From Candidatus Moraniibacteriota bacterium (GTDB lineage: Bacteria; Patescibacteriota; Minisyncoccia; Moranbacterales; UBA1568): a DNA stretch of 41,279 nt. The stretch is taken from contig JAAXXG010000001.1 in NCBI GenBank assembly GCA_013334575.1, forward strand, positions 1 to 41,279, read 5' to 3'. Shown here one piece after another: positions 5,268 to 41,279 of the stretch. The position numbers were made by a program, and so were the translations under genes. Under the pieces are notes generated by a model that worked only from the letters and a program-made list of their open reading frames with translations, ran no database searches and had not been told where the DNA came from. The stretch's first letter is position 1, and every line of letters starts with the position of its first letter.

Positions 5268-6038
5268 ATGGGAGATAGTCTCTCGGGCGCGGTGTCACGG
5301 CATACCCGGTACCATTCGGGAACTTATGAAAGGCTTATGAACGGGCGGAATGATGACGGTTCGAGACGGGATAAGGTGTCGGCATGGCTGCTTCGTATCG
5401 GAACGGCAATCGTGCTTGCGGGAGCCGCGATGCTTCTGTTCATATTCGGACCCGTTCTGCGTGAGGAAGTGCGATATTCGTTCCGCGGCGACGCTGCCAA
5501 GGACGCGCGCGTGACGCTCGATTCCCGCGACGCATCGAAACCGGGCATGCTCGTTCCGGTCGATCCGGGATATTCCATCGTCATTCCGAAGATCGGCGCC
5601 AACGTTCCGGTCGTAGCGGATGTGGACCCGCTGGACCCGTCCGTCTATCGCGCGGCGCTTTCGAAGGGGATCGCGCAGGCGAAGGGGACCGTGGCGCCCG
5701 GGGAGTCCGGGAACACGTTCCTGTTCGCGCATTCCTCGGACGATTTCCTGACCCGCGGGAACTACAATACCGTCTTCTATCTTCTCGATAAACTGTCGGT
5801 CGGGGACCGTTTTACGATCGCCTACCGCGGGAAGCTGTACGGATATCGCGTGTTCGACCGGCGCGAGGTGCCTGCCGACCGGGTCGAATACCTGCACGCG
5901 CTTTCCGAGGAGAATACCGTGACGCTCATGACCTGTTGGCCGCCGGGGACCGACCTTCGCCGCCTGCTCGTCTTCGGGGTGCTGGAACCGGAATCCGGAA
6001 CGGGAAGTGCTCGGCTTGATTCGACCGGAAATCCGTGA
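5268..6038 (+). CDS. class E/F-like sortase
   Basis: A membrane-anchored transpeptidase that would join surface proteins to the cell wall or to each other. It has one N-terminal membrane segment (about residues 39-62) and then an extracellular sortase domain. The catalytic triad is visible as H155 in FLFAHSS, C223 in TLMTCWPP, and an arginine at R231/R232 in TDLRRL. YSIVIPKIGANVPV marks the start of the domain, and the short spacing fits class E/F-like single-domain sortases. The start is uncertain: ATG 5268 and ATG 5337 are in frame, and only the second keeps the cytoplasmic tail short. No obvious LPxTG-type substrate is seen in the window. Confidence 0.88.
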   Translation: MGDSLSGAVSRHTRYHSGTYERLMNGRNDDGSRRDKVSAWLLRIGTAIVLAGAAMLLFIFGPVLREEVRYSFRGDAAKDARVTLDSRDASKPGMLVPVDPGYSIVIPKIGANVPVVADVDPLDPSVYRAALSKGIAQAKGTVAPGESGNTFLFAHSSDDFLTRGNYNTVFYLLDKLSVGDRFTIAYRGKLYGYRVFDRREVPADRVEYLHALSEENTVTLMTCWPPGTDLRRLLVFGVLEPESGTGSARLDSTGNP

Positions 6039-23811: not shown

Positions 23812-25638
23812 ATGCCTCAGATTTTCTATACGACTCAGGACGAGGAAATCCTCTCGCTTGTCGGGCGTCTCCGTTCGTCGGAACTCCTGGAGAACGTTTT
23901 CGTGATACCCAAACGGGCTCTTGTCCTGCAGAGTATCGTCAATCTCAGGATGCTCGCACGGGAAGCGGAGAAATCCGGGAAACACGTCGCGATCGTCACG
24001 CAGGACGAGAACGGACGCCGCCTTGCCGAGAAAGCCGGACTCGAGACCCGTCCGTATTCGGAAGAGGCGGCCCGCGAGCCGGAACCGGTCGTATATGCGG
24101 AAGAGGCGGAGGAGGACCATCCGCGCGTCTCCGTTCCGGCAGGTTCGGTGGGAACGCCGGATTTTTACGGGAGTCAGCGTCCGGAGATGTCCACTTCTCC
24201 TTCTTCCGATACTTCCGCCTCGCTGCGGCTCCGGGTCCGTGATACGTCGCCGAAATTCAAGACGGCGCTTAACTCGATGGAGACGCCGCCCGATTCGACT
24301 CCGGTGCCGCAGGTTCCTCCGGTCCGACCGTCGATCCCGTCCGGACCGTCCGATGCCGGCAGGCTTACCCGCGTCTTTTCCTCGTCGCCGTCTCGGGAAC
24401 AGTCGGCACCCCCGTCTCCGCGTTCCGCGACGAAACGCGTACCGCAGGCGAAATCGCGTAAAGCGCGCTCCTCCGTGACCGTCGATACGAAGGGGCGGGC
24501 CCTGTTCGTCGCGTTCGTCGCGCTTTCCGTCGTCTTCCTGGTGGGAACGGGGGCGTTCATCCTTCTTCCGAAGGCGGTGGTTTCCGTGACTCCGCAGTCG
24601 CAGTCACAGGACATAGAAATGGATTTCGAGGCCAGGACCGACCCTGCGGCCGTCGGCGACCGCATCGTTTCGGCGCGTGTCGTCGAGCGGGATGAAACGG
24701 TAAGCGTGACCGTCGAGACGACCGGATCGTCTGCCGGCGCAGGCTCGAAGGCGTCGGGGCATATCGTCATCACGAACGAGTACGGCTCCGATCCGCAGCA
24801 GCTTGTCGCCACGACCAGGTTCCAGACGTCGGACGGGAAGGTGTTCCGCCTGACGAAGGGCGTGACCGTTCCGGGAGTTTCCGGTTCAGGGAAGCCGGGG
24901 GTCGCGGAAGCGGAGGTCGTGGCCGATGCGTCGGGCGATTCGTACAACGTGGGGCCGACCGATTTCACGATCCCCGGATTCGCAGGCGGACCGAAAGCGG
25001 GAAAAATCTACGCGAAGTCCTCGGCGCCGATGAGCGGCGGGTCCTCTGCCGGATCTGGCGGATCGGCTGCCGTCGCGGCGGCCGATATGGAGCGGGCGCG
25101 ATCGGAGGCGGAAGCGAAGTTCCTCGACTCGATGAAGGACTCGCTTTCCAGGGATCTCGCGACCGACGAGCGGTTCGTTCCGGATTCCATCGATATCGCC
25201 CAGGTCGGGACGCCGTCCGTCCCCTCGGTCGGATCGGTGGCGGCGTCCTTCGAATACAAGGCCTCGTTCCATGGCCGGGTATTCGTATTTTCCGAAGCAT
25301 CGCTCCGCGAGAAGACGGCCGCGCTCCTTCGTAAGAATTTCTCGGTTCCGGAGTCGTTCTCGACGAAGGACGTGACCTTCCGATATGAGGCGGGGACTTC
25401 GGATTTCCAAAACGGTTCGATCCGCTTCAAGGCCGGCGTGAGCGCGCTCTTCGTTGCGGCGGTCGACGTGAGCGGTCTCCGGACGGACCTGCTCGGCAAG
25501 GACGCCGACGAAATAAAGCCGCTGCTCGAACAACATCCGGAAGTGAAGAATATCGAGATAGAACTGCGACCGAAGGGATTGTCCTTCGCGGTTCCCCGCG
25601 ATCCGAAGCGGGTTACCGTAACGGTCGCATCCCCGTAA
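23812..25638 (+). CDS. membrane-anchored baseplate-J-like protein
   Basis: A 608-residue protein in three parts. Residues 1-85 form a compact alpha/beta domain (VFVIPKRALVLQSIVNLRML, HVAIVTQDENGRRLAEKAG). Residues 86-225 are disordered, rich in Pro/Ser/Arg. One membrane helix (about 227-255, LFVAFVALSVVFLVGTGAFILLP) leads to a long exterior part with beta segments (VVSVTPQSQSQDIEMDF, GHIVITNEYGSDPQQLVATTRF, and VPGVSGSGKPGVAEAEVVAD). This exterior resembles the baseplate-J-like proteins reported in candidate phyla genomes. Its function there is unknown. It starts 11 bases after the FtsA-like gene, so the two are probably made together. No phage genes are nearby, so a prophage remnant is unlikely. 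Confidence 0.65.
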   Translation: MPQIFYTTQDEEILSLVGRLRSSELLENVFVIPKRALVLQSIVNLRMLAREAEKSGKHVAIVTQDENGRRLAEKAGLETRPYSEEAAREPEPVVYAEEAEEDHPRVSVPAGSVGTPDFYGSQRPEMSTSPSSDTSASLRLRVRDTSPKFKTALNSMETPPDSTPVPQVPPVRPSIPSGPSDAGRLTRVFSSSPSREQSAPPSPRSATKRVPQAKSRKARSSVTVDTKGRALFVAFVALSVVFLVGTGAFILLPKAVVSVTPQSQSQDIEMDFEARTDPAAVGDRIVSARVVERDETVSVTVETTGSSAGAGSKASGHIVITNEYGSDPQQLVATTRFQTSDGKVFRLTKGVTVPGVSGSGKPGVAEAEVVADASGDSYNVGPTDFTIPGFAGGPKAGKIYAKSSAPMSGGSSAGSGGSAAVAAADMERARSEAEAKFLDSMKDSLSRDLATDERFVPDSIDIAQVGTPSVPSVGSVAASFEYKASFHGRVFVFSEASLREKTAALLRKNFSVPESFSTKDVTFRYEAGTSDFQNGSIRFKAGVSALFVAAVDVSGLRTDLLGKDADEIKPLLEQHPEVKNIEIELRPKGLSFAVPRDPKRVTVTVASP

Positions 25639-33923: not shown

Positions 33924-36900
33924 ATGCAAGGGGTTTCCATCGTCATTCCGACACTCAACGAGGCGGAAAACATTCCCGGGCTGCTCCGGCGGGTTACACT
34001 CGCATTCGAGGACGCCCCGTTTCGGCACGAGCTTATTTTCATCGATGACCGGTCAACGGACGGAACGGCCGACATCGTCCGCGAAGCCGCGAAGGAAGAT
34101 CCGACGATCCGATGCTATGAGAAGGTGGGTAGGCGGGGCAAGGCACAGTCGCTTCTTGAGGGTTTCGCACATGCGAGTTATGACCGGATCGCCTATATCG
34201 ATGCCGACCTGCAGTACCCGCCGGAGGCGATCCCAAAGATGGTCGCGATGCTCGATCAGGGTTTCGATATCGTGGTTGCGGACCGGGTGCAGCATGACGA
34301 AGGACTCGCGCGGACGATCGCAAGCCGAGGCTTTCAGCTCGTGTTCTCGCGATTCCTTCACGGTCTTTCCTGTGACGTGCAGAGCGGTCTCAAGGTATTC
34401 AAGGCTCGTATAGCCAAGGAGGTCCGTATCGCCGACCCGTCTCCGTGGACGTTCGACCTTGAATTCCTGCTCTCCGCCCGGAATTACGGGTACGTGATCG
34501 GCAGCGTCCCGATACGGTTCGACGAGCGGAAAGCGGGAAAATCGAAAATCAGGTTCTTCCGTGCCGTGTTCGAGATCGGATGGAACGCGGTGAAGATGCG
34601 GTTCTCTTCCCGTCCTCCGTTGCTCATCCATCCCGAAAATTTTGATACGAAGATGGTCGGGGCCGGGGTCGCGCATGGGGCGAAGCGTTTCGTGACCCAT
34701 ACGACGTTGCATCATACCCTCTCCGCGCTCGAGACGTTCGCACCTTGGCAGTGGTCGGTCGTCGCTCTCCTATCCCTCGCGATGCTCGGAGGCCTCCTGG
34801 TCGCGCCTCTTGCTACGGGAGTTTCCGTGCTCGCTCTCCTGTCCGTCCTGTACTTCGGGGATACCCTGTTCCAGCTCTTTCTCGTCCTGCGAAGTCTCAA
34901 GACTCCGCCGGAACTCTCGTTTTCCGATGCGGAGCTTTTGTCGATTCCGGAAGAGGAATTGCCGACGTATTCCGTCCTCTGCCCGCTCTATCGGGAGGCG
35001 AACATGCTTCCGACCTTCGTCGAGGCGATGGATGCGCTCGATTGGCCGAAGGACCGGCTCGATATCATGCTGCTCCTGGAAGAGAACGACCGCGAGACGA
35101 TCGAGGCCGCGCAGGCGATGCATCTTCCGGAATCCTTCCGGATCGTGGTCGTACCGCATTCGTTCCCGAAGACCAAGCCCAAGGCGTGCAACTACGGGCT
35201 TTCCTTGGCGAAGGGGGAGTACGTCGTCATCTACGACGCCGAGGATATTCCTGATCCGAAGCAGCTCAGGAAGGCATATCTCGGCTTCCAGACGGCCGGC
35301 GACTCGGTGCGGTGTCTTCAGGCGAAGCTCAACTACTTCAACCCGCATCAGAATCTTCTGACGCGCTTCTTCACGGCGGAATATTCGCTCTGGTTCGACG
35401 TGGTTCTCCCGGGACTGCAGTCGATCGATACCACGATCCCGCTCGGCGGGACGAGCAATCACTTCCGTACCCGGGATCTTCTTGCCCTGGAAGGATGGGA
35501 CCCCTTCAACGTGACCGAGGACTGCGATCTCGGAGTGCGCATCTTCAAACGCGGGTTCCAGACGGCGATCATCGATTCCGTGACGCTCGAGGAAGCGAAC
35601 AGCCGGGTCGGAAACTGGCTCCGTCAGCGATCGCGTTGGATCAAGGGATACATGCAGACCTATCTTGTCCACATGCGCGACCCGATAGGCTTCTTCCGCG
35701 AGAACGGATGGCACGCGCTCATCTTCCAGATGGTGGTCGGCGGCAAGATAGCGTTCATGTTCATCAACCCGATCCTGTGGATAGCGACCATATCGTACTT
35801 CGTGTTCTATGCGTATGTCGGAGAGGCGATCCACGCCCTCTTTCCGTCGGCCATATTCTATCTCGCCGCGACCTCGCTCGTACTTGGGAACTTCCTCTAC
35901 CTCTACTACTACATGATCGGCGCGGCAAAACGCGGGCATTATCAGGTAGTCAAGTACGTGTTCCTCGTGCCGCTGTACTGGGTGCTGCTGTCGGTGGCCG
36001 CGTTCATCGCGCTGTACCAGCTGCTCGTGAAGCCGCATTATTGGGAGAAGACGACGCACGGGCTGCACAAGCCGGCGAAGAAGGCGTCTCTCGATTCCGC
36101 CGTGGCACGGAAGATAACGGAAAAGGAATCGGAGGAACCGGATGCCGATTCCCAGTCGGTCCCCGTCGCGGGGAAACGCGCTATCCCATACCTGGGGTTC
36201 TTTCGGAACTTTGCCTTTGGGTCGGATATGAGGCGCAAAGGAGCTTCCGAAAGAAAGTCCGTATCGATGCCGATCGAGTGGCTTGTTTCCAAGGAAGGGC
36301 TTTTCATCTATGCACTTGCAGCGGCGAGCGCGCTAAATCTCGTTTTCAACGTCTATCTCGGTCGGGTGCTTTCCTATGAGGATTTCGGCATCGTGGCGTT
36401 GGTCAATACCGTCTGGTACTTCACTACTATTTTGATTGGTGCGTTTTCGACTTCAATCAATCATCGGGTAGCGTATTTCATCGGACGGGGAGAGCGTTCG
36501 GCTCCGGCCTTCTTCGGGATGATGCGGATGTATGCCGTCCGCGTAGCCCTGCTGGTAGTCGTGTCCTGGCTTATGCTTGTTCCAGTCCTATCCACATTCT
36601 TCCATGTCGATTCGACCATCGTTCTCGCGCTGTTCGCTCCTACGTTTCTTTTCGGCGTCCTCGCGTCCGGAAACGCGGGATATCTGCAGGGATCGTTCCG
36701 GTTTTCCGCTGCCGCGGCTGTAATCGTCGTCGAAGCGCTCTCGAAACTTGTGATCGCTTTCGTGCTATCCGCAATCGGTTTTCCCTCCTTCGCCTTTGCT
36801 GCGATTCCGGCCTCTATCGCCGTCTCGGCCTTTGTCGGTTACCTGTTCGTCCGACGGGACGCGCCCGCGTTCATGACGACGAGCCGTGAGGATCGGGACG

Positions 36901-38678
36901 CTTCCTATCGGTTTCCGACCTCGTTCTTTCTGGTGACGGCGCTTACGAATCTTTCGTCCACGTTGTTTTTAAGTATCGATATGCTGCTTGTCAAGCACTA
37001 TCTTGACCCCGTTTCAGCCGGCGAGTACGCGATCTTGTCGCTCGCCGGAAAAATGATCTTCTTCTTCGGATCGCTCGCGAGTTCGTTTCTGCTGACATAT
37101 GTGAGTCGGAATGAGGGGCGATCGACCAGCTCGCGTCGCATTCTTGCGGCCACCTATGCCGTGACAGCGGCCCTCGTAGCAGGCGGTGTCATCGTCTTCG
37201 GGGTATTGGGCGGATGGACGGTTCCATATGTCATCGGAGAAAAGGCTGTCGCAGTGATCCCGTATCTGCTGCCATATACCCTTGCCATGGGAATCTTTAC
37301 CCTGGTGAACGTCATCGTGACATACGGCCTCGCACGACGTCGGTATGCGTATCCGGCCATTTCGATTCTCGTCTCTTTCGTCATGGCGTGCAGTATCATC
37401 CTCCGTCACGATTCGCTCGGCGATATCGTCGCGATCATCCTTGCTGCGGCGGTCGCGGGTCTGGCGCTGAGTCATGTCACGTTCTGGTTCGAACCGCAGC
37501 ATCCGCTTATCGTTCGGGCATTGCGCGACCTTGCCGGAGTGTTCCTGGAGAAACTGCCGGTGTCGCGGCGCACGCGCGTCGTCGGTAGCATCCTTATCCT
37601 CAACTGGCGCGATATGCGGCACGACTTTGCCGGCGGCGCCGAAGTCTATATCGAGGAACTTGCCAGACAGTGGGCGGCTCAGGGGAATCGGGTGACACTT
37701 TTCTGCGGAAACGACGGAAAGTCACCACGAAGCGAAATCGTAAACGGAGTGGAGATAATCCGAAGAGGCGGGTTTTATCTCGTCTATTTCTGGGCGTTCG
37801 TCTATTACCTGTTCCGATTTCGCGGGCGATACGATATTGTCGTCGACTGTCATAACGGTATTCCGTTCTTCGCTCCGCTGTATGTCCGCCATCCGCGGGT
37901 CATCTGCCTCATGCACCACGTGCATCAGGAAGTATTCCGACATTCGTTGCCGGCGCCGCTGGCTGCATTCGCGAGCTTTCTGGAAAAGGGTCTCATGCCG
38001 CCGGTCTATCGGAACGTAAGATTCATCACGGTATCCGAATCGAGCAAATCGGAGATGGCGGCGCTCGGACTCGGCGAAAGAGGTGGGATTCATGTTATCC
38101 ACCCCGGTATTCATGTCGGCGATTTCGCGCCCGGCAAGAAGGCGGAACATCCCATGGTCCTTTATCTCGGAAGGCTTAAGGCGTACAAGTCGGTCGATGT
38201 CCTGCTTCGGGCGTTCCAGACCGTGTGCGAGCGGCATCCGGACGCGGAACTCGTAATCGCCGGCGACGGCGAGGAGCGGCGATATCTGGAGCGGCTCGCG
38301 GCAGATCTGCGGATCGGTGACCGTGTCCGGTTCCTTGGCCGCGTATCCGAAGAATCGAAGCGAGAACTTCTCTGTAAGGCGTGGGTCGCGGTCAACCCGT
38401 CCTTCATGGAAGGATGGGGCATCGTCGTGATCGAGGCGAACGCCTGCGGGACGCCGGTCATTGCTTCGGATATTCCCGGACTTCGCGATTCCGTCCGGGA
38501 CGCCGCGACGGGCTATCTTGTGAAATACGGCGATTCAGCTGCTTTTGCCGAGAAGATTTCAGAAGTAATCCGAAATGTGAGACTTCGGGAGAATTTAGGA
38601 AAGAATGCGAGAGAATGGGCCGAGGGATTCGATTGGAGGAAGAGCGGAGAAGCATTTGTCTCTTTGATTACCAAATGA
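33924..38678 (+). CDS. four-module fusion: GT2 + membrane GT2 + flippase + GT4
   Basis: One uninterrupted 1584-residue frame holds four modules. Residues 1-225 are a dolichol-phosphate-mannose-synthase-like GT2 (VSIVIPTLNEAENI, DDRSTDGT at 41-48, DADLQ at 93-97). Two membrane helices (275-325) lead to a processive-type GT2 (345-590) with DAED at 438, ED at 532-533 and QRSRW at 568-572, followed by four helices (600-702). A polar linker (706-785) precedes a Wzx/MATE-like flippase of about a dozen helices (788-1190). Residues 1217-1584 are a GT4 with GGAEVYIEELA and an E1496-X7-E1504 pair. The topology keeps every enzyme module in the cytoplasm. An ATG at 36267 could start the flippase separately, but no ATG lies near the GT4 boundary. 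Likely role: synthesis and export of a surface glycan. Confidence 0.85.
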   Translation: MQGVSIVIPTLNEAENIPGLLRRVTLAFEDAPFRHELIFIDDRSTDGTADIVREAAKEDPTIRCYEKVGRRGKAQSLLEGFAHASYDRIAYIDADLQYPPEAIPKMVAMLDQGFDIVVADRVQHDEGLARTIASRGFQLVFSRFLHGLSCDVQSGLKVFKARIAKEVRIADPSPWTFDLEFLLSARNYGYVIGSVPIRFDERKAGKSKIRFFRAVFEIGWNAVKMRFSSRPPLLIHPENFDTKMVGAGVAHGAKRFVTHTTLHHTLSALETFAPWQWSVVALLSLAMLGGLLVAPLATGVSVLALLSVLYFGDTLFQLFLVLRSLKTPPELSFSDAELLSIPEEELPTYSVLCPLYREANMLPTFVEAMDALDWPKDRLDIMLLLEENDRETIEAAQAMHLPESFRIVVVPHSFPKTKPKACNYGLSLAKGEYVVIYDAEDIPDPKQLRKAYLGFQTAGDSVRCLQAKLNYFNPHQNLLTRFFTAEYSLWFDVVLPGLQSIDTTIPLGGTSNHFRTRDLLALEGWDPFNVTEDCDLGVRIFKRGFQTAIIDSVTLEEANSRVGNWLRQRSRWIKGYMQTYLVHMRDPIGFFRENGWHALIFQMVVGGKIAFMFINPILWIATISYFVFYAYVGEAIHALFPSAIFYLAATSLVLGNFLYLYYYMIGAAKRGHYQVVKYVFLVPLYWVLLSVAAFIALYQLLVKPHYWEKTTHGLHKPAKKASLDSAVARKITEKESEEPDADSQSVPVAGKRAIPYLGFFRNFAFGSDMRRKGASERKSVSMPIEWLVSKEGLFIYALAAASALNLVFNVYLGRVLSYEDFGIVALVNTVWYFTTILIGAFSTSINHRVAYFIGRGERSAPAFFGMMRMYAVRVALLVVVSWLMLVPVLSTFFHVDSTIVLALFAPTFLFGVLASGNAGYLQGSFRFSAAAAVIVVEALSKLVIAFVLSAIGFPSFAFAAIPASIAVSAFVGYLFVRRDAPAFMTTSREDRDASYRFPTSFFLVTALTNLSSTLFLSIDMLLVKHYLDPVSAGEYAILSLAGKMIFFFGSLASSFLLTYVSRNEGRSTSSRRILAATYAVTAALVAGGVIVFGVLGGWTVPYVIGEKAVAVIPYLLPYTLAMGIFTLVNVIVTYGLARRRYAYPAISILVSFVMACSIILRHDSLGDIVAIILAAAVAGLALSHVTFWFEPQHPLIVRALRDLAGVFLEKLPVSRRTRVVGSILILNWRDMRHDFAGGAEVYIEELARQWAAQGNRVTLFCGNDGKSPRSEIVNGVEIIRRGGFYLVYFWAFVYYLFRFRGRYDIVVDCHNGIPFFAPLYVRHPRVICLMHHVHQEVFRHSLPAPLAAFASFLEKGLMPPVYRNVRFITVSESSKSEMAALGLGERGGIHVIHPGIHVGDFAPGKKAEHPMVLYLGRLKAYKSVDVLLRAFQTVCERHPDAELVIAGDGEERRYLERLAADLRIGDRVRFLGRVSEESKRELLCKAWVAVNPSFMEGWGIVVIEANACGTPVIASDIPGLRDSVRDAATGYLVKYGDSAAFAEKISEVIRNVRLRENLGKNAREWAEGFDWRKSGEAFVSLITK

Positions 38679-38691
38679 ACGATCAGGATAT

Positions 38692-39639
38692 ATGTCCGCA
38701 AATGTCGAAAGTGAAGCCGTAAAAGATATCATGGGCGTTACGATCGCCATTCCGGCTCATAACGAAGAGGACGGAATTGCCGCGATCCTTTCCGCAGCGC
38801 TCACTCAGGATAGACGAGGTTATGTCCTAGAGCGAATCGTCGTGATTCTCGACGGATGTACCGATCGGACGGAGGAGATAGTCAAGAGGATCTCAAGAGA
38901 GAATCCCATTGTTGAGCTTGCTTGCGACGGAAGGCGACTCGGAAAGTCGGCGCGCATGAACGAGATGTTTCGGCTGAACCGAAGTGACGCGCTTGTCGTC
39001 ATTGATGCCGATCTCGCATTTGCTCCAGACCTTGTCGCGGAACTTGTCGCGCCCTTTTCTGATGATCAGGTCGGAGTCGTAGCCGCAAACAATCGTCCGG
39101 CGCTTCCCCCTCGGACAGTGCTCGAACGACTCCTTATAGCACGGGACGCTTGGTGGTACGATGTGCGTCATGATTTCAACGGCGGAGACAATCCGGATAA
39201 CAGCCCCGGACAATGCTATGCCTTCAGTCGGAAATTCGCGGAAACCCTTGTTTTCCCCGATGGCTTGATGCACGATCACGAATTCATCTATCTCATGTCG
39301 ATGGAGTTCGGCATGAAGTTCATTTTCGCGGAGCGTGCAAAGGTCATCTATCGCGAGGTCACGAACTGGAAGGAGCTGGTTGTTCGGGCGCGGCGGCATG
39401 CGCACGTGGATGCCGTGGATATGGCGCGGTTTCATTTTGATAAGAAAGATATTCCGGTCATCCCCACGGGAAGGAAGTTGGTCGGGATCGTCCGCATGTT
39501 CTTTCGTGAACCGATTCCTGTCGCGTTCGGCGTGATGCTTCTTATCGCGGCAATTAAGATCGCAGTCATGATGGGTGACGATAACCCGATACATAGTCAA
39601 GGTCTTTGGGAGCGATCGGAATCCACAAAGCACGCATAG
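38692..39639 (+). CDS. GT2-family glycosyltransferase
   Basis: A 315-residue glycosyltransferase that would add a sugar to a lipid- or glycan-linked acceptor at the inner membrane. GVTIAIPAHNEEDGI and VVILDGCTDRTEEI form the nucleotide-binding half. VVIDADLAFAPD carries the DxD-type metal site (DAD). One C-terminal hydrophobic helix (about 275-295, PVAFGVMLLIAAIKIAVMM) anchors it. It begins 14 bases after the fusion gene and is slightly more A/T-rich. The sugar and acceptor are unknown. Confidence 0.88.
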   Translation: MSANVESEAVKDIMGVTIAIPAHNEEDGIAAILSAALTQDRRGYVLERIVVILDGCTDRTEEIVKRISRENPIVELACDGRRLGKSARMNEMFRLNRSDALVVIDADLAFAPDLVAELVAPFSDDQVGVVAANNRPALPPRTVLERLLIARDAWWYDVRHDFNGGDNPDNSPGQCYAFSRKFAETLVFPDGLMHDHEFIYLMSMEFGMKFIFAERAKVIYREVTNWKELVVRARRHAHVDAVDMARFHFDKKDIPVIPTGRKLVGIVRMFFREPIPVAFGVMLLIAAIKIAVMMGDDNPIHSQGLWERSESTKHA

Positions 39640-39665
39640 TTTACGAATCCGCTATTTCTCCGAAG

Positions 39666-40796
39666 ATGCAAAGGTTGAATGTGAATTCCAAAGAAAATAT
39701 TCGCGACACTTATGATGTCGGCATTTCGGAGTGCCTGACGCCAATGCTCCGTTCCGAATGGATACGACTCTGGGAGAATTCAGACGAAGGGCATTTTTTC
39801 AATTCTCCCGAGTGTTTCGAGTCATTTCTGGAAGCTTTACATATCGAAACGTATCGTATTGTCACTTGTCGCCAAAACGACGCACTTTGCGCAGTACTCC
39901 CTCTCGTTCGAAGTAGGATGTTCGGAACGAGTGTTTGGACTGCGGCAGGAAAGGAAGGGAACTATGTCGATAAGCCCCCCTTCCTTCTTATGTCGGAAGA
40001 CCCTGGACTATTCGGGGCGCTTCTTGATGCCGCGAGCAGTCTCGGAAACATCTGCCTGCCGGAAGTGCACGAGCGGAAGAAAGAACTGTTCTCCGGTCTT
40101 GAGTCATCGCAGCTCCTGTTTGAGCCGGTTTCCGTGAACCGATTTGCAGAATTATCTCCGGAGCTCGAAATTTTACGCTTCTCTTCCTCTAGTCAGAAGA
40201 GGAAGATGCGTTCCGGTGTGCGGTCCGGCATGCAGGCATGGAAACATGAGTTCGTTATTTTTACGGATGATTTTGCTGCTGCCCTGCGAACGGTGATGGA
40301 TGTCGAGGCGAGAAGCAGTAAGGCGAAAAGGCACATGGCATTCTTCGGAAAGGAAATAAACCGGAAAATTTTCGATGCTTTTTTGAAGCATGCGCCTGAC
40401 TTCCTGAATTTCGCGGTCTTGTATTCCGATGGCCATCCTATAGCGACCAGTGCGGGATTCGTGTATAAGGGGATATTTACGGGATACCATTCTTCATTTG
40501 ACGAAGCCTACCGTCGTCAGTTTCCAGGCAAGCTACTCGTATTTTACTTGCTTGAACGTCTTAAGTCGGACGGCTATCATGCGGTTGATTTCTTGCGTGG
40601 AGATTCCGATGTGAAGCGCCTGTTCGCAGACGAAATATCGATGCAGTATGACGTGATGATATCACGGAATTGTCTCTATCTGAGCTGGTGGAAGATCTCA
40701 TTCACGGTTCGACGTCAGATAAAGCTGGCTATTGCCGTGGCGCGGTCAGTTGAAAGATCCATACTCCGTAGATTTGAGAAAAATGAAAAGCGATAA
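39666..40796 (+). CDS. BioF2/FemAB-like GNAT acyltransferase
   Basis: A protein of about 377 residues with the double-GNAT layout of the BioF2-like (Acetyltransf_6) family found in many exopolysaccharide loci. Landmarks are WIRLWENSDEGHFFNSPECFESFL in the N-terminal half (shown by WIRLWEN), SSSSQKRKMRSGVRSG, a central FAVLYSDGHPIATSAGFVYKG and the C-terminal GYHAVDFLRGDSDVKRLF. It may acetylate or aminoacylate the glycan. An upstream TTG at 39606 is in frame and would overlap the GT2 gene; I prefer ATG 39666. Its base composition is more A/T-rich than the fusion gene. The next gene overlaps its end by 14 bases. Confidence 0.8.
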   Translation: MQRLNVNSKENIRDTYDVGISECLTPMLRSEWIRLWENSDEGHFFNSPECFESFLEALHIETYRIVTCRQNDALCAVLPLVRSRMFGTSVWTAAGKEGNYVDKPPFLLMSEDPGLFGALLDAASSLGNICLPEVHERKKELFSGLESSQLLFEPVSVNRFAELSPELEILRFSSSSQKRKMRSGVRSGMQAWKHEFVIFTDDFAAALRTVMDVEARSSKAKRHMAFFGKEINRKIFDAFLKHAPDFLNFAVLYSDGHPIATSAGFVYKGIFTGYHSSFDEAYRRQFPGKLLVFYLLERLKSDGYHAVDFLRGDSDVKRLFADEISMQYDVMISRNCLYLSWWKISFTVRRQIKLAIAVARSVERSILRRFEKNEKR

Positions 40797-41279
40797 GAGA
40801 CGGATCATCTTCTCCAATTATGATGACGTCGCGAATCCGGCCTATGGAGGCGGGGGAGCGCGTGCCATTCACGAGGTCGCGAAGCGGCTCGCGAAGGAGT
40901 CGGACGTCACCGTGATCACGGGAACCTATCCGGGTGCCGTCGATACGGTCATCGACGGGGTCCGCTACGAGCGGATCGGGACATATGCGTTCGGACCGAA
41001 GCTCGGGCAGCTCATTTACTCACTCCTGTTGCCGTTCGTTGCCTGGCGGAAGTCCTTCGATGTCTGGTATGAGAGCCTGACACCGCCGTTTTCCTGTTCG
41101 TTCCTGCCGATCTTTGCCAGGGGGCCGGTCGTCGCGCTCGTCCATATGCTTTCCGGTGAGGACATGTGGCGGAAGTATCGACTCCCGTTTCATCTTGCCG
41201 AACGGGTCGGACTCCGGCTGTATCGCCGATTCGTCGTGCTTTCCGACGCGGTAGCTTCGCAGGTACGCCGATCGAATCC
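40783..41279 (+). CDS. GT4-family glycosyltransferase (3'-truncated by window edge)
   Basis: An open frame from the ATG at 40783 runs off the window. The visible 165 residues begin MKSDKRRIIFSNYDDVANPA and continue with GGGGARAIHEVAKRLAKE, the glycine-rich start of a GT4 Rossmann domain. VTVITGTYPGA, SFDVWYESLTPP and FVVLSDAVASQV follow, as in GT4 N-terminal domains. The catalytic C-terminal half (EX7E) lies outside the window. The start overlaps the acyltransferase stop, indicating translational coupling. Confidence 0.85.
   Translation, partial: MKSDKRRIIFSNYDDVANPAYGGGGARAIHEVAKRLAKESDVTVITGTYPGAVDTVIDGVRYERIGTYAFGPKLGQLIYSLLLPFVAWRKSFDVWYESLTPPFSCSFLPIFARGPVVALVHMLSGEDMWRKYRLPFHLAERVGLRLYRRFVVLSDAVASQVRRSN

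Follow-up and report, generated by a model that had tools for sequence, protein, structure and literature searches.

A conserved single-frame fusion of two GT2 glycosyltransferases, a Wzx-type flippase and a GT4 glycosyltransferase in Patescibacteria

The window, i.e. the whole stretch of DNA analysed here, comprises 41,279 nucleotides from a Candidatus Moraniibacteriota bacterium (assembly GCA_013334575.1, contig JAAXXG010000001.1), a tiny-genome member of the Patescibacteria. An uninterrupted + strand frame of 1584 aa extends from the ATG at 33924 to the stop codon ending at 38678, and three further genes follow before the end of the window. The features of the locus are listed below, residues being those of the 1584-aa protein.

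33924..38678, + strand: four-module fusion ORF, 1584 aa, with ATG 33924 as presumed start; a homologue with 58% identity is found in genome G007 (locus L009)
33924..34628, + strand: GT2a, predicted polyprenyl-phosphate glycosyltransferase of DPM1/ArnC/GtrB type, residues 1-235 (Pfam Glycos_transf_2, PDB, Foldseek, motifs)
34743..34901, + strand: two predicted membrane helices, 274-293 and 295-326, preceding the GT2b catalytic domain (AF2 model, hydropathy)
34956..36062, + strand: GT2b, residues 345-713 (Pfam, AF2, Foldseek, conservation, distant NfrB match)
36063..36290, + strand: linker, residues 714-789 (pLDDT below 50 over most of its length in both half models)
36291..37487, + strand: flippase of Wzx type (MOP superfamily), residues 790-1188, with 12 predicted helices, 6+6 (Pfam, hhalign, AF2, topology)
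37587..38675, + strand: GT4, retaining, GT-B fold, residues 1222-1584 (Pfam, Foldseek, conservation)
38692..39639, + strand: GT2 glycosyltransferase, 315 aa (Pfam)
39606..40796, + strand: FemAB/GNAT-like Acetyltransf_6 protein, 396 aa (Pfam)
40732..41279, + strand: GT4, 386 aa, leaving the window (40732-41892 on the contig)

A Pfam scan of the whole protein recovered Glycos_transf_2 (residues 5-135), Glyco_tranf_2_3 (347-575) and Glyco_transf_4/Glycos_transf_1 (1237-1565). Concerning GT2a, the nearest solved structures in a PDB sequence search were ArnC (1.1e-25), dolichol-phosphate mannose synthase (DPMS, 4e-19) and GtrB (4e-10), and by this kinship the module is a predicted polyprenyl-phosphate glycosyltransferase. 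Its fold (Foldseek, ArnC 9asc, TMt 0.61) and its retained catalytic residues D41/D42, D93 and D95 fit this assignment.

As for GT2b, it spans residues 274-713 when its leading helices are included and resembles the membrane GT2 enzymes of the hyaluronan/cellulose-synthase type. D438, E532-D533 and Q568-R569-x-R571-W572 are invariant in 35/35 sequences, membrane helices follow at 596-702, and W707-x-K-T-x-H-G713, retained in 34 of these sequences, sits at what we take to be the position of the gating loop in BcsA. The model superposes on Cv hyaluronan synthase (7sp7, TMq 0.39) and BcsA (5ej1, TMq 0.42) over about 450 columns, gating-loop-like motif included; in contrast to these enzymes, GT2b lacks a PilZ domain and, it seems, any membrane helix beyond the gating loop. 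Judging by motifs and fold, it would be processive. A distant match (22% identity, 1e-6) links it to NfrB of E. coli, a c-di-GMP-controlled exopolysaccharide synthase with an MshEN domain (PMC8669469). GT2b shares with NfrB a GT2 domain with DxD-, TED- and QxxRW-type motifs as well as membrane helices, whereas the fusion is joined to GT2a, flippase and GT4 and shows no MshEN domain in the Pfam scan, a domain carried, as in NfrB, by GT2b relatives from Cohnella and Rhodovarius. Membership of the NfrB family was rejected, the relation being one of homology only, without MshEN. Other GT2b associations were seen elsewhere: three Chloroflexota proteins of 1000-1230 aa (L074, L104, L105) join a GT2b synthase to a PMT_2-like region, and a Saccharibacteria neighbour of GT2b encodes a GT2 fused with a GH5-type cellulase domain (L072:3947-7279).

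The identity of the flippase needed separate proof, since the whole-protein Pfam scan gave no match over residues 788-1190 at 1e-3. Scanned alone, the module matched Polysacc_synt_3 with 23.6 bits (gathering score 23); among 33 homologous modules, Polysacc_synt was matched by 10 and MatE by four, and the full-length homologue L060 reached 41.7 bits for Polysacc_synt (cut-off 28.2). In hhalign comparisons, the profile built from the 33 modules aligned with a Wzx of the same genome (1.3e-5) and with E. coli WzxC (3.2e-5 over 329 columns). The module is thus classed as Wzx-type by sequence, and its transport function is predicted. MurJ was rejected as its family, the profile giving no match. A PDB sequence search with this profile returned only an orexin receptor and one small membrane protein, discarded as low-complexity membrane noise. 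A Foldseek search with the second half of the fusion speaks neither for nor against a flippase fold, because its best 50 matches are all GT-B enzymes.

In the GT4 module, R1417, K1422, E1496 and E1504 (EX7E) are invariant (31/31), and its Foldseek matches are MshA, PimA and BshA (TMt about 0.75-0.8). The AF2 models of residues 1-760 and 741-1584 have mean pLDDT values of 87.7 and 85.8, respectively. Helices and inner K/R-rich loops fit 12 flippase segments in two sets of six, N-in/C-in, which would place all three enzyme modules on the cytoplasmic side, as proposed in the earlier note. This orientation requires the very hydrophobic helix 673-702 of GT2b, which may be placed either across the membrane or at its interface, to sit at the interface like IF3 of BcsA; if it spans the membrane, the simple topology of the chain fails. 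Catalytic residues are kept in all enzyme modules and none appears dead. The four parts are all assigned to already known families, their identities as first read from the letters being borne out by domain search, profile alignments and fold matches, and the borders then drawn between them being correct to within a few residues.

The possibility that an assembly error or a frameshift merged separate genes is extremely improbable. It draws on the fact that metagenome assemblies can be chimaeric, nothing specific pointing to the fusion itself, and on apparent frame breaks within the modules of a few relatives (L052, L057, L058). However, a homologue from a genome of the same family (G007) is 58% identical across residues 4-1583 in a single frame of 1565 aa, which excludes chance, and L028, a record labelled Candidatus Moraniibacteriota, equals this L009 copy in architecture and coordinates. 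Scans of genome contigs and of 380 Patescibacteria genomes yielded about 19 other distinct Patescibacteria proteins with all four modules in the same order and in one frame, from independent assemblies of other species. On this basis, the artefact was rejected. The copies L031 and L037 end at contig ends. Named records carrying the four modules include Moraniibacteriota, Falkowbacteria, Kaiserbacteria, Levyibacteriota, Daviesbacteria, Microgenomates and Parcubacteria. The fusion is therefore confirmed as real and conserved in Patescibacteria, as the earlier note had supposed when it proposed looking for the same order in related genomes. A pattern-limited scan of genome contigs found no four-part form outside this phylum. 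No described four-part version, no synthase-flippase fusion and no Patescibacteria example was found in the literature searched, most subscription papers lying outside its reach, in agreement with the note as regards the four-part form.

Within the phylum, the distribution is patchy: a strong relative of any part was found in 19 of the 380 genomes, and none of five other genomes of the source genus holds a full-length copy. Partial fusions keep the module order in most cases. GT2b-WZX-GT4 without a fused GT2a occurs at L034, L039, L042, L109 and L110; L048 has GT2a-GT2b and WZX-GT4 as two frames, L114 has GT2a-GT2b beside GT4, and L064 and L067 have GT2b and WZX as separate genes. At L068, GT2b stands next to a distant WZX and, in last position, a GT2a-type gene, each as a gene of its own; this locus and L011 come from one genome, as seen from their identical GT2b. 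The flippase is absent at L053 and L073, where GT2b-GT4 and GT-C-like genes are retained. The modules of L052, L057, L058 and probably L040 contain breaks that resemble frameshifts.

A quick GT2b tree groups most four-module proteins into a clade of 28 rows (SH-aLRT 98), and a second clade (98) holds mostly three-module and partial forms. Pairwise identities of the modules correlate among 15-16 complete proteins (Mantel r 0.36-0.77), with at most six of 2000 permutations reaching the observed value. The fusion has therefore been inherited as a unit, its modules diverging together. A single origin followed by losses is the simplest reading, and the fusion may have arisen by the joining of adjoining operon genes.

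The flippase family was matched in 85 of the 380 Patescibacteria genomes, about a dozen of these genomes having it fused and about 70 unfused. A GT2a-type gene lies near the unfused flippase in 46 of 47 loci inspected; it is the immediate neighbour in 38 of them, and each time (38/38) downstream. Around other Wzx genes, a small control set of 11 loci, a GT2a-type gene was never adjacent and only twice close. The flippase family is thus strongly linked, genomically, to DPM-like GT2 enzymes. Turning to the source genome, its two other Wzx genes (C2 141.8 kb and C6 53.3 kb) each have a Wzy within about 5 kb. The cluster of the fusion has neither a Wzy, none lying within about 30 kb and the nearest (Wzy_C) being about 32 kb off, nor an initiating phosphoglycosyl transferase, the sole Bac_transf enzyme found in the genome being about 154 kb away. 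Several neighbours of unfused flippases are themselves composite: a GDP-mannose-4,6-dehydratase-like gene has an intein inside (Intein_splicing and LAGLIDADG_3; L150:5619-7988), and one GT2a partner is fused to a GDP-mannose-dehydratase-like epimerase (L153:7197-8924). The GT2a partners at L158, L168, L177 and L182 are longer (about 575-612 aa).

Downstream of the fusion, the contig continues beyond the window and the 386-aa GT4 with genes for a PIG-L protein, a 534-aa PMT-like protein, a conserved 551-aa membrane protein and a 427-aa CarboxypepD_reg protein. Of 27 loci with the fusion, several of them cut off, 15 have a member of the 534-aa family nearby and 13 one of the 551-aa family; neither family turned up at 60 loci that surround unfused flippases, be they of the same or of other families. 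PMT is matched below cut-off by the 534-aa protein and PMT_2 by three of its 12 homologues, a single weak PMT match occurs among seven members of the 551-aa family, and neither protein has a PDB match; both are weakly assigned as putative GT-C enzymes. The 551-aa protein (G000:C2:44275-45930; L140:5676-7331), whose relatives share at most 72% identity, itself matches nothing in Pfam or PDB. For the 427-aa protein, a glycoside hydrolase suspected by eye was rejected for want of database support. Other fusions were seen in similar operons: a GT4-PIG-L fusion (L141:8286-10238), a GT2-GT4 fusion (L029:4921-7572) and a frame of 1073 aa merging both downstream membrane proteins (L053:11597-14815).

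Flippases of Wzx/MATE type have been proposed to carry lipid-monophosphate sugars. In the GacI/GacK/GacL precedent of Streptococcus pyogenes, GacK is the proposed Wzx-type flippase (PMC8035078); a MATE flippase found with a GT-C in Citrobacter is a further proposed case (PMC11127046), and AglR has the flippase role in AglD/AglR/AglS of Haloferax volcanii (PMC3871713). As in the fusion, the Gac and Agl systems combine a polyprenyl-phosphate GT2 with a flippase, of Wzx type in Gac as here, and the operon of the fusion also has GT-C-like proteins, weak as that assignment is. The fusion departs from them by holding this GT2 and the flippase in the same polypeptide, to which a processive-type GT2 and a GT4 also belong. 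Compared with Wzx/Wzy systems, the flippase has the 12 helices and the Pfam and profile matches (WzxC, own-genome Wzx) of a Wzx, but is covalently joined to enzymes and lacks a neighbouring Wzy or phosphoglycosyl transferase.

The reading tentatively preferred here, with a probability of roughly 0.45, is that a synthase has been joined to the half of a three-component glycosylation system that makes and flips the sugar donor. The polypeptide would then be a membrane-bound glycan factory, in which GT2b, hyaluronan/cellulose-synthase-like and NfrB-related, may build a glycan and extrude it through its own membrane domain. GT2a would charge polyprenyl phosphate with a sugar, the fused Wzx-type flippase would turn this polyprenyl-phosphate sugar outward, and the GT-C-like proteins of the operon might use it to decorate the glycan outside. 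GT4 would act in the cytoplasm, adding one more sugar to an acceptor that may be lipid-linked or a primer. It is unlikely, in turn, that GT2a, GT2b and GT4 build one lipid-linked oligosaccharide exported by the fused flippase, with hand-over in one chain. Such a Wzx-dependent line agrees with three catalytically intact GT modules predicted to be cytoplasmic, with a Wzx-type flippase, Wzx proteins classically flipping lipid-linked repeat units, and with the Bac_transf enzyme of the genome. Yet the locus lacks the Wzy that stands beside both other Wzx genes as well as a phosphoglycosyl transferase, the GT2b fold is that of self-exporting synthases, and the constant partner of the unfused flippase is a DPM-like GT2. 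The three-component reading is favoured over a linear path from synthesis to export because of this GT2a-flippase pairing, the lack of a nearby Wzy and the putative GT-C genes of the operon. Against it stand the loci without a flippase (L053, L073), the several members without a fused GT2a and the weakness of the GT-C assignment. The idea that domain order mirrors pathway order, from synthesis to translocation, finds no support in this form: GT2b need not use the flippase, since the polymer synthases it resembles pass their product out via a membrane domain of their own, unfused flippases pair with a GT2a-type gene, and some relatives do without flippase or fused GT2a.

Rather unlikely, too, is a fusion serving mainly the co-expression and co-localisation of enzymes in a fusion-prone operon, acting in separate steps or on separate glycans without channelling. 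The many fusion states (L064, L067, L114, L048) and the fused operon neighbours (L141, L029, L053) are in its favour, but the full order in about 20 diverged proteins and the correlated distances of their modules suggest selection for the joined form. Quite doubtful is a single-chain assembly line that would charge and flip the carrier, build up and extrude the backbone and attach a branch sugar, one module handing over to another; if true, it would combine a synthase that exports its own product with a flippase of Wzx type, otherwise alternative export routes.

On the preferred three-component reading, the fusion would be a natural and conserved case in which a polysaccharide synthase is linked to an enzyme making a lipid-sugar and to the flippase that goes with it. 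Because the fusion couples a donor enzyme to a flippase, it becomes testable which lipid-sugar a flippase of the Wzx type transports. Having flippase and enzymes in a single chain would be valuable for structural work, too, given how difficult it is to isolate Wzx flippases in complex with their enzymes. The fusion also opens a way to study the surface glycans of Patescibacteria, which have received little attention. Elsewhere in the window, a 608-aa open frame at 23812-25638 has no Pfam match, and a sortase gene at 5268-6038 suggests covalent surface display in the source organism.
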